From positions 3,599,001 through 3,663,000 of the forward strand of contig NZ_CP132910.1 in NCBI RefSeq assembly GCF_030846775.1: DNA of 64,000 nt, written 5' to 3'. Shown here one piece after another: positions 43,997 to 47,767 of the stretch. Within the stretch, counting starts at the first letter, position 1. The number at the start of each line of letters is the position of its first letter. The translations under genes were made by a program, and so were the position numbers. The stretch is from Geothrix sp. 21YS21S-2. GTDB lineage: Bacteria > Acidobacteriota > Holophagae > Holophagales > Holophagaceae. The notes under the pieces were generated by a model. That model did not search any database. It worked only from the letters and a program-made list of their open reading frames with translations, and had not been told where the DNA came from.

Positions 43997-44470
43997 CAGA
44001 ACTCATGGCGGACGCAAGGACCTTCATCGATGGAGACACCCCGGCCCCGGACCTCCGCGTGGCCATGGCGGCCATGGACAGAGTGGGCGCCTCATCAAGG
44101 TGCGGCAGCGCAACTGGAATGACACCGTCCTCCGGTGCACCGACCTGCCCAATCCTGACCTGGACCTCCCCCGCCTCGACAGGGCCATGCTGAAGCAAGG
44201 GAACGATGTGGACGCCCTCAGGCGGGCCTTGCAGGAAAACCGGAATCTGCCGCACGTAGCTGGCGTCCGTCGCGGGTCCAGCATGTCCAGGATCTGCCCC
44301 CAGGCATACGCCGTCTGAAATGCTCATGGGCACGAGGCCGGGAACAGGACCGCCCGTCCGCCGGAAAGGCGCGAGGCCTGCAGCGCATCCGGGAGTTGAG
44401 TGCGGCCCCCGAAAAGGAGCATAGTGGAAGGATCCCGATAACCCATCGCCCGTGAATGCAAGGAGCTCCC
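43997..44470. other. Region without a recognisable gene
   Basis: No frame here has convincing coding features. A 72-codon frame on the plus strand (44100-44318) contains RQRNWNDTVLRCTDLPNPD and a helix DVDALRRALQENRNL. It starts with GTG, lacks a ribosome site and has no match I recognise. It could be a remnant. The last 60 bases must contain the promoter and leader of the SPFH gene. Confidence 0.5.
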
Positions 44471-46813
44471 TTGGTCATCCCCTTTCCGCTCACCTACCTG
44501 TGGCTGGCTGCCGGCGGCCTGGTCCTGCTCCTGATCCTCCTGAAGTCCTTCACCATCGCCCGGGGCGATCAGATCGTCGTGCTGGAGCGCCGCTGGTTCG
44601 GGCGGCAAATGCCGGACGGGCGCTCCGTGGCCCTGCGCCACGAGGTGGGCGTCCAGGCTCGGGTGCTGGGGCCGGGCTTCCACCTCCTCATCCCCTTCCT
44701 GTACAAGACCAGCAAGCGCGATTTCTGCGTGATCCAGACGAACAAGGTGGGCGTCGTGCGGGCCGTGGCGGGCGCCGCCATCCCTTCGGGCCAGTTCATG
44801 GCCAAGTCGGTGGAGTGCAGCCTCTTCCAGGACGGGGAGGCCTTCCTTTCCAATGGCGGCCAGAAGGGCCCCCAGCTGGCGATCCTGCCCGAGGGCCAGT
44901 ACAAGATCAATCCCCTCCTCTTCGAAGTGGCCATGGTGGACGCGACCATGATCCACGACAACGAGGTGGGCTACGTGGAGTCCATCGCGGGCCAGCCCGT
45001 GACCCGGGACGGGGGCAACTTCGGCTCGCCCGTGGCGTGCGACAGCTTCCAGGACGCCGAGGCCTTCATCAAGAACGGCGGCCAGAAGGGTCCCCAGATC
45101 GCCTTCCTGCCCCCCGGCTACTACCGCATCAACACGATCATGTTCCAGGTCCAGAAGATGCCCATCACCAAGATCCCAGGCGGCCAGGTGGGCCTCGTGG
45201 AAGCCACCGACGGCGCCAAGATCCCCGAAGGCCGCCTTCTGGCGGCCCGGGTCCAGGGGCACGGCAACTTCTTCGACGGAGAGGCCTTCCTCAGGAACGG
45301 GGGAGAGAAGGGCCGGCAGCTGGACGTGCTCATGCCGGGCGTGTACCGCCTGAATCCCAAGCTCTTCAAGGTCATCGACATCGTGGACTGGACCCACATC
45401 GAGGCCGACCAGGTGGGCATCGTCACCATCAACGAAGGCAAGCCCATCATCGATTCCTCCAAGATCGCCGCGGAGGAGCTCCCCATGGGCACCCACGACA
45501 ACTTCCAGGACGCCGACGCCTTCCTCAAGGCCGGCGGGCAGAAGGGCCTGCAGATTCCCGTGCTGCGGGCCGGCAACTACGCCATCAATCCCTGGTTCGC
45601 CACCATCGAGAAGGTGGACATGATCCAGGTGCACATCGGCAACTGCGGCGTGGTCACGAGCTACGTGGGCGCGGACGGGGACGACCTCACGGACGACGCG
45701 GTCAACGCCAAGATCGTGACCAACGGCTGCAAGGGCATCTGGGCCGATCCCCTCCAGCCCGGCAAGCACCCCCTCAACACCAAGATCTGCAAGGTGGACA
45801 TCGTGCCCACCACCCAGATCCTGTTGAACTGGGCCGACAACCGCTCCAGCGCCCACGAACTGGACTCCAACCTGAAGACCATCACCCTGCGCACCGCGGA
45901 CGCCTTCAACGTGAACATGGATGTGAGCGTCATCATCCACATCCCCGTGAAGAACGCCCCCAAGGTCATCGCCAACCTGGGCTCCATCAACAACATGATC
46001 AGCCAGGTGCTGGAGCCGGCCATCAGCAGCCACTTCCGCAACGCCGCCCAGTACATCCAGGCCCTGGATCTGTACACGCGGCGCAAGGAACTCCAGGAGA
46101 AGGCCAAGGAGCACATCGACGCGGTCCTGAAGGTCCACCACATCGATTCCAAGGACACCCTCATCGCGGACGTGGTGCTGCCCCCGGAGCTCACCAAGAC
46201 CGTGACGGACCGCCAGATCGCCGAGCAGGAGAAGAAGACCTTCGCCACCCAGAAGGAAGCCCAGGACGAGCGCCGCAACCTGGAGAACGCCAAGGCCCAG
46301 GCGAACATGCAGCCCAAGGTGGTGGAATCCGAGCGCAACGTGGAGATCCAGAAGAACCTGGCCGAGAGCCACATCAAGGAGGCCGAAGGCTCAAAGCAGG
46401 CGGCCATCCTCATGGCGGAAGGCCAGGCCACGGCCATGCGCCTGGAAGCCGGCGGCCAGGCGGAAGCCACCAAGCTGAACGCCGCCGCCAACGCGGAAGC
46501 CACCCAGAAGGTGGGCAGCGCCGAGGCCGAGATCATCCTGGCCAAGGGCACCTCCACCGCCGAAGCCTACAAGCTGGAAGTGGCCGCCATGGGCCGCGAC
46601 GTCTTCGGGCAGATCCGGGTCATCGACAAGATCGCCTCCAGCAGCCTCAAGCTCATTCCCGAGAACCTGGTCATGGGCGGTGGCGGCGGCGAAGGCAACG
46701 GCATGGTCAATGGCCTGTTCGGCATCGCGCTCCTGGAGAAGCTCACCGGCAGGAGCTTCGTGGTGCGCGAGGCTCAGCCTTCCCCTGGGGAGACCGGCAG
46801 CATCCAGCGGTAG
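44471..46813 (+). CDS. Membrane-anchored SPFH (flotillin-type) protein with tandem N-terminal repeats
   Basis: The TTG at 44471 follows AAGGAG by five bases and is preferred; an ATG at 44456 has no ribosome site. Numbering from 44456 (785 residues), one transmembrane helix lies at 12-29. Four repeats start with FQDGEAFLSNGGQKGPQL-like motifs at 124, 198, 272 and 350, each leading into LPPGYYRINP-like and VGxV strands. A related half-unit precedes them (about 65-105) and another follows (about 424-450). An SPFH/Band 7 domain (about 452-580) leads into an Ala/Glu-rich coiled coil (about 585-715) as in flotillins. Flotillins form oligomeric membrane scaffolds. No NfeD partner is next to it. It overlaps the convergent response-regulator gene by 40 bases. 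Confidence 0.88.
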   Translation: MVIPFPLTYLWLAAGGLVLLLILLKSFTIARGDQIVVLERRWFGRQMPDGRSVALRHEVGVQARVLGPGFHLLIPFLYKTSKRDFCVIQTNKVGVVRAVAGAAIPSGQFMAKSVECSLFQDGEAFLSNGGQKGPQLAILPEGQYKINPLLFEVAMVDATMIHDNEVGYVESIAGQPVTRDGGNFGSPVACDSFQDAEAFIKNGGQKGPQIAFLPPGYYRINTIMFQVQKMPITKIPGGQVGLVEATDGAKIPEGRLLAARVQGHGNFFDGEAFLRNGGEKGRQLDVLMPGVYRLNPKLFKVIDIVDWTHIEADQVGIVTINEGKPIIDSSKIAAEELPMGTHDNFQDADAFLKAGGQKGLQIPVLRAGNYAINPWFATIEKVDMIQVHIGNCGVVTSYVGADGDDLTDDAVNAKIVTNGCKGIWADPLQPGKHPLNTKICKVDIVPTTQILLNWADNRSSAHELDSNLKTITLRTADAFNVNMDVSVIIHIPVKNAPKVIANLGSINNMISQVLEPAISSHFRNAAQYIQALDLYTRRKELQEKAKEHIDAVLKVHHIDSKDTLIADVVLPPELTKTVTDRQIAEQEKKTFATQKEAQDERRNLENAKAQANMQPKVVESERNVEIQKNLAESHIKEAEGSKQAAILMAEGQATAMRLEAGGQAEATKLNAAANAEATQKVGSAEAEIILAKGTSTAEAYKLEVAAMGRDVFGQIRVIDKIASSSLKLIPENLVMGGGGGEGNGMVNGLFGIALLEKLTGRSFVVREAQPSPGETGSIQR

Positions 46814-47493
46814 CCTTCCCGGTCGAGGGTCTGGATGAACGGGGACCGGTCCGTGTCCCCGAGCTTCTTGCGCAGGGTGCCGATGTGCACGTCCACGGTC
46901 TTGGGCATGGGCTTGCCGTCCGGGTCCCAGGCCATGTTGAGCAGTTCCTGGCGGCTGTTCACCCGGCCGGGGTTGGACACGAGCACTTCCAGCAGCCGGA
47001 ATTCCCGCAGCGTCAGGTTCAGGTTGGTGCGCCCGCGGTGCACGTCCAGCTGGAGGAAGTTGATGCGGAAGGGGCCGCTGCGGAGCACCCGGGGCAGGCT
47101 CTCCTGGTTGCGCGTCCTGCGCAGGATGGCCCGGATCCGGGCGATGAGCTCGAGGATGGAGAACGGCTTGCCCAGGTAGTCGTCGGCGCCCTGGGACAGG
47201 CCCTGGATGCGGTCGGCGTCCCCGGTGCGCGCCGTGAGGATGAGGATGGGCACCGGGTCGCGGCGCCGCCGGAGGACGTGGAGCACCTCGAAGCCGCCGA
47301 CCTTGGGCAGCATGAGGTCGAGCACGATCAGATCGGCGGGCTGGCGCTCCTGGATCGCCAGGCCGGCGGCGCCGTCGCCCGCGGCCTCCACCTGGAAGCC
47401 GGCGGCCTCCAGGTTGAGGGTGAGCATCTCGGCGATCTCGGGTTCGTCCTCGATCACCAGGATGCGGTCCGGGGGTGGGGGTTTGGCGGCCAT
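46774..47493 (-). CDS. OmpR/PhoB-family response regulator
   Basis: This is a 239-residue two-component regulator. The receiver domain has the acidic pair in VIEDEPEIAEM, phospho-acceptor Asp in LIVLDLMLPK, Thr in LILTART and Lys in GKPF. The C-terminal winged helix runs from LTLREFRLLEVL to VDVHIGTLRKKLGD...EGYRWML. I take the ATG at 47493 (MAAKPPPPDRIL), with in-frame alternatives upstream. It is divergent from the TonB receptor gene. A histidine kinase lacking an adjacent regulator lies just beyond that receptor, so the two may be a pair. Confidence 0.93.
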   Translation of the reverse strand: MAAKPPPPDRILVIEDEPEIAEMLTLNLEAAGFQVEAAGDGAAGLAIQERQPADLIVLDLMLPKVGGFEVLHVLRRRRDPVPILILTARTGDADRIQGLSQGADDYLGKPFSILELIARIRAILRRTRNQESLPRVLRSGPFRINFLQLDVHRGRTNLNLTLREFRLLEVLVSNPGRVNSRQELLNMAWDPDGKPMPKTVDVHIGTLRKKLGDTDRSPFIQTLDREGYRWMLPVSPGEG

Positions 47494-47629
47494 GATCCCT
47501 GATGGTAGACGCATTGCGGCTGGGTCGCGCGCTTCTTCCGCCCGGAAAAGTTCGCCGCCGGAAGGCCGGCCCCGGGCCTCCAACTGTTCGGTTCGACTGC
47601 AGGCATGATCGTTCCATAACCCATCTATA

Positions 47630-47635
47630 TATAAT
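47630..47635 (+). promoter_or_regulatory. Consensus -10 box in the AT-rich TonB-receptor upstream region
   Basis: A perfect TATAAT lies within the run CTATATATAATAAATG, about 130 bases before the receptor ATG. No convincing -35 is present at 16-18 bases, so activation by a regulator such as the adjacent response regulator would fit. The 274 bases between 47494 and 47767 hold no gene. Confidence 0.35.
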
Positions 47636-47767
47636 AAATGCATACGTCGCGCCGCTTCGTTAAAATTGAAGAATTCCTTTGTCCGCCTTTACTGGACGTG
47701 GTCCTCCCGGAAAGCAAGGATCAGACAAGCCAATTAACCAATCCACAATTCATCCGGGAGCCTTCAC

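Follow-up and report, generated by a model that had tools for sequence, protein, structure and literature searches.

A tandem-repeat SPFH protein of Geothrix with a predicted vault-like layout

Vaults are giant hollow particles of eukaryotes, and both their origin and their function are long-standing questions. Their subunit, the major vault protein (MVP), consists of tandem beta repeats, an SPFH-like shoulder and a cap helix in that order; it carries nine repeats, is soluble without a membrane anchor and forms 39-fold half-cages which are joined at their N-termini. In the 64,000-nucleotide stretch of Geothrix sp. 21YS21S-2 analysed here (contig NZ_CP132910.1, positions 3,599,001 to 3,663,000; the window), a plus-strand gene at 44471..46813, delimited from the sequence and a 15-member alignment, encodes a 780-residue SPFH protein with internal repeats, which the original prediction described as a possible relative or analogue of MVP. 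Is a bacterial protein then built like a vault subunit, and what would it build? The best explanation, which we consider probable, is that this is an SPFH-superfamily membrane protein in which duplication of SPFH1 has produced six stacked modules, placing the layout of a vault subunit on a membrane anchor, and which packs as a half-vault cage.

Repeats and domain layout

The repeat motif recurs at residues 124, 198, 272 and 350 (numbering of the 785-residue frame, see below) with spacings of 74, 74 and 78, exactly where four repeats of ~74 residues had been claimed, the third copy reading FFDGEAF instead of FQD. The signal lies far above shuffled controls: at an offset of 74 the best 60-residue match of the protein with itself scores 167 while the maximum among 200 shuffles is 39, and not even one copy of the motif appeared in 2000 shuffled sequences. 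The four strong units share 35–49% mutual identity.

In the full-length AlphaFold2 model, where residues 30–440 mostly have a pLDDT of 75–92, one strand pattern is copied six times. Module 1 (residues 27–88; 44549..44734) is divergent and is placed by the model and by weak unit-profile matches in relatives. Modules 2 (92–161; 44744..44953), 3 (165–235; 44963..45175), 4 (239–310; 45185..45400) and 5 (314–387; 45410..45631) are defined by the unit profile, the model and the motif, and module 5 also by the unit tree. Module 6 (391–446; 45641..45808) is the SPFH1 subdomain itself, identified by the unit profile, by alignment with prohibitin and stomatin and by the Streptomyces homologue. The "half-units" previously reported before and after the repeats are modules as well, namely a divergent full first module and the SPFH1 subdomain.

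The most fitting reading of the repeats, on both sequence and model, is as SPFH1 copies in tandem, because the SPFH1 position scores with the unit profile in the window protein (10.8 bits at residues 415–450), in many huge-phage relatives (about 20–24 bits) and in the Streptomyces clavuligerus homologue, where the domain preceding SPFH2 keeps the full repeat motif (38.6 bits). Prohibitins and stomatins align to the model from about residue 384 onward in VIA-align, and a single module of a repeat-only model superposes on the SPFH1 of prohibitin with 1.1 Å over 45 residues.

The features expected of the SPFH superfamily flank this stack. The putative N-terminal transmembrane (TM) helix (residues 5–26; 44483..44548) is indicated by the model, the charge count and a hydrophobic peak, and the protein body is predicted to be cytoplasmic because basic residues come after this helix. 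On the other side are SPFH2 (residues 450–575; 45818..46195; pLDDT 33–69), the probable equivalent of the MVP shoulder, which is supported by Band_7 and by stomatin and flotillin SPFH matches, and a long helical or coiled-coil region (residues 572–722; 46184..46636; low pLDDT), the likely equivalent of the MVP cap helix, seen in the model and in the alignment with MVP structure 9r86. Sequence and model thus give a layout that starts with one TM helix, continues with six modules, of which four are strongly alike and two are divergent, and ends with SPFH2 and the coil.

Band_7 (PF01145) is the sole Pfam match (residues 422–598, E 1.2e-25, 91 bits over a cut-off of 23.6), bearing out the SPFH domain of the original prediction. 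No NCBIfam model scores above its cut-off; the flotillin FloT model NF058507 reaches 16.5 bits, far under its curated cut-off of 700, placing the protein outside FloT, and PHROG 200, labelled 'lipoprotein', covers the SPFH part only. The open frame runs to a stop at 46813 and gives 785 residues from ATG 44456 or 780 from TTG 44471. TTG 44471 is a plausible start codon since a Shine-Dalgarno-like AAGGAG (44460..44465, plus strand) stands 5 bases before it; the earlier numbering was mixed, with coordinates counted from the TTG and residues from the ATG. A response-regulator gene on the opposite (minus) strand (46774–47643) runs convergently and shares 40 bases with the SPFH gene at the latter's 3' end.

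Resemblance to the major vault protein

When the full-length model was compared with the PDB in Foldseek, the top 12 matches were all MVP (E 4e-13 to 3e-10), followed by prohibitin (1e-7) and then by HflK/C, erlin, stomatin and flotillin. VIA-align matched the model to MVP repeats R1–R7 (3gnf) with Z 11.9 and 4.5 Å over 318 residues, prohibitin and erlin chains coming within 1 Z of this match where they cover the model's SPFH end. Against 9r86, residues 11–726 of the model were aligned end to end with MVP 151–802; the rmsd of 67 Å means that this alignment supports the order of parts and is no rigid fit. The repeat-only model, which serves as support only, found 14 matches in the PDB with E≤0.001, all of them MVP, the first other protein following at E 1.1, and it aligned to MVP with Z 10.2 and 4.2 Å over 213 residues. 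MVP is therefore the best PDB match of the modelled repeats, and the proposed order of beta-modules, SPFH/shoulder and long helix is the same in the model. A fold of the repeats at odds with MVP-type modules, which would have counted against the original prediction, was not what the comparison gave. A structure search among viral proteins returned best matches annotated as SPFH or Band 7, most of 250–500 residues and none strikingly vault-like.

At the sequence level the picture is different. The Pfam Vault repeat (PF01505) has no match in the open frame and, in a six-frame search of the window genome at E≤10, only one elsewhere, below the cut-off; across 396 Acidobacteriota genomes it gave a single match, also sub-cut-off. 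MVP_shoulder (PF11978) has no match at E≤10. These searches, together with that of the unit profile described below, speak against membership of MVP by sequence, and we do not file the protein as MVP because its Pfam features are missing, the modules number six and not nine, and a membrane anchor is present. The suggestion that it is a relative or analogue of MVP therefore stands for modelled fold and order of parts but finds no sequence-level kinship; kinship is supported by the models only as far as the shared SPFH1 fold.

In the predicted structure the protein shares with MVP the tandem SPFH1/MVP-type beta-modules, the SPFH2-like shoulder and the long helix. It differs in that the family module is 74–78 residues long with its own conserved loop, in that the predicted anchor stands where MVP has its waist interface, the end at which vault halves meet, and in that the family is bacterial and phage-borne. 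With the canonical SPFH cages (HflK/C, prohibitin, erlin, stomatin, QmcA, flotillin) it has in common the membrane anchor, SPFH1, SPFH2, coiled coil, Band_7 match and single-module fold, but those described structurally have one SPFH1 (PMC12624060, PMC13100048) and not six stacked modules.

A family of varying repeat number

Close relatives with four strong units (57–94% identity in the 15-member alignment) occur in Holophagaceae/Geothrix, Verrucomicrobiota, Bacteroidota and a few IMG/VR contigs. The repeat number, which the original prediction asked to be followed through homologues, is kept among these but falls to three, two or one in the wider family. Three strong units are found at five Acidobacteriota loci (L023, L025–L027, L050) and, with SPFH1 counted, in Streptomyces plasmid proteins annotated 'SPFH domain-containing protein', for which 16 of the 16 records are from S. 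clavuligerus. Two are found in other Acidobacteriota, including the window genome's own paralogue at 881–883 kb (L191:7205-9238; 678–689 residues with an inserted stretch), a type which is the commoner one in other genomes of the taxonomic family, and also in Rhizobium plasmid proteins (annotated 'flotillin family protein') and in a ~620–640-residue protein of huge phages (L066–L105, L061; viral contigs up to 482 kb, and LR756502, 642 kb). One strong unit remains in the ~547-residue relatives of Vibrio phages 207E48.1, SUMAE and Kuja (L063–L065), annotated as SPFH, hypothetical or membrane protein. Identity to the window protein is about 42–46% over the shared modules, SPFH2 and coil for the huge phages, about 30% for the Rhizobium and Streptomyces plasmid proteins, whose repeats are unannotated and of which the Rhizobium type has an insert between units, and ~25% for the Vibrio phages.

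In the unit tree, units from different phyla group according to their position, and the unit just ahead of SPFH1 (module 5 here) groups together in all types; in the core tree the six-module type is one clade with support 1.0. The window protein is 73–80% identical to verrucomicrobial proteins, while the other genomes sampled from its family, one of the same genus included, have the shorter paralogue at best; the long type occurs elsewhere on three Holophagales metagenome-assembled contigs. Horizontal transfer of the window gene is therefore probable, judging from this identity and from the absence of the long type in most close Acidobacteriota relatives. We found no description of tandem SPFH1 proteins in the open-licence papers that our searches returned, and the survey of prokaryotic SPFH proteins mentions neither vaults nor tandem repeats (PMC2636767). 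The family is thus wide, real and vault-like in its predicted layout, and apparently undescribed.

The gene neighbourhood varies. NfeD-linked stomatins and flotillins have NfeD next to them, whereas none stands among the scanned neighbours of the window gene, as originally noted, nor is there an NfeD gene in the whole window genome (98.6% complete, at least three SPFH genes), control genomes being positive. No conserved operon partner in bacteria was found across the fetched loci, and no partner family is common to all 20 Acidobacteriota regions, whose neighbours were clustered and not domain-scanned. Three related Acidobacteriota loci (L180, L183, L184) share a protein of 180–230 residues with no assigned function just upstream of the repeat-SPFH gene, and two others (L176, L179) share a different one of ~165 residues, also upstream. 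In 22 of 40 huge-phage loci an NAPRTase/NadV-like (nicotinate phosphoribosyltransferase-type) gene is nearby, mostly directly upstream. On the S. clavuligerus plasmid pSCL4 (L174:699-4701) two same-strand TIR-domain genes, the second with an additional GUN4-like domain, directly precede the SPFH gene.

Proposed assembly and the origin of the vault

How might such a protein work? By analogy with HflK/C, flotillin, prohibitin and MVP, many copies would line up laterally to form a ring, with the TM helices encircling a patch of the inner membrane and the stacked modules rising as a tall cytoplasmic wall. SPFH2 would form the shoulder and the helices would close the dome, so that the whole would resemble one vault half set upright on the membrane, which takes the place of the other half. 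The number of modules would then set the height of the wall and hence the height of membrane-bound cargo that can be enclosed or shielded. The task is most likely the general SPFH role of segregating and protecting or holding membrane proteins, and SPFH relatives do build closed, membrane-anchored cages (PMC12624060, PMC13100048).

Several points weigh against this proposal. Its basis is sequence and monomer models for the parts, ring and cage being known from SPFH relatives only. The unit profile, run against all PDB sequences, found neither MVP nor canonical SPFH1 at E≤10, and a loop bearing a short helix (FQDGEAFLxNGGQKG), conserved family-wide, is part of the repeat. AlphaFold2 training included MVP structures, so the model may lean towards MVP; the repeat-only model, built with 15 sequences, has a weak mean confidence of 59.5, and SPFH2 and coil are modelled at low confidence (pLDDT 33–69). 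The charge count behind the topology (over 90 proteins, 22 lysines and arginines in the 15-residue stretch preceding the TM helix and 225 in that following it) is partly biased, as short segments before the helix inflate the contrast.

Could the protein instead be an ordinary flotillin-like raft scaffold, in which the extra modules lengthen an arm or bind partners and which forms loose clusters or low-order oligomers, with no tall closed cage? Pfam calls nothing but Band_7, the Rhizobium plasmid relatives are annotated as flotillins, and the genomic context, which changes and in most bacteria offers no constant partner, would fit a scaffold. However, the FloT model scores far under its cut-off and NfeD is absent from the genome, and the match of successive modules to the MVP wall extends over 200–318 residues, which is unexpected for loosely linked domains. 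The units also keep position-specific identity across phyla, like fixed layers of a wall, and closed cages are what the known structures of related SPFH complexes show (PMC12624060, PMC13100048), so that we regard a simple scaffold as unlikely. A link to NAD chemistry is more doubtful still: the cage would house or restrain TIR-type NADases in bacteria, or aid NAD salvage in phages, as a device of defence or counter-defence. TEP1, a TIR-like NADase, occurs in vaults, whose shoulder binds ADP-ribose (PMC13174449), and the TIR-TIR-SPFH arrangement of S. clavuligerus could possibly be a TIR-cage operon that recalls TEP1 in vaults, just as the NAPRTase/NadV-like genes beside the phage homologues would agree with salvage. 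But the Streptomyces case is a single species, the window gene has no such neighbour, the clustered Acidobacteriota regions lack a common partner family, and no PADLOC model of a defence system matches the SPFH proteins, which makes this a rather improbable general function.

If the half-vault cage is the right reading of the protein, its ancestry can still be seen in two ways. The vault-like layout may be independent, MVP and the present family each having multiplied SPFH1, in which case the family would be uninformative on the origin of the vault. We judge the chances of this to be evenly balanced: no sequence profile links the family to MVP, the repeat of 74–78 residues has a family-specific loop, and the variation of repeat number within the family implies that modules multiply readily, but the order of parts and the module fold are the same over most of the chain. 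Alternatively, and with a smaller though real chance, the vault would have its prokaryotic source, or a sister, in this family, MVP having arisen from a membrane-anchored tandem-SPFH1 protein after loss of the anchor. If so, anchor loss let two half-cages join mouth to mouth, and today's bacteria and huge phages would still make membrane "half-vaults" of differing height.

A 2021 review held the prokaryotic ancestry of MVP to be undecidable (PMC7916137), and a 2026 paper described MVP domains as unique to the vault, with other SPFH proteins forming half cages on membranes (PMC13100048). At the level of the modelled fold, the family is a counter-example to that uniqueness. Its members, which have between one and four strong repeats and at most six modules in all, would be intermediate forms linking ordinary SPFH cages to the vault, and their range of module number is a natural series for asking whether module number sets cage height. 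The family thereby offers a testable lead on the origin of the vault.
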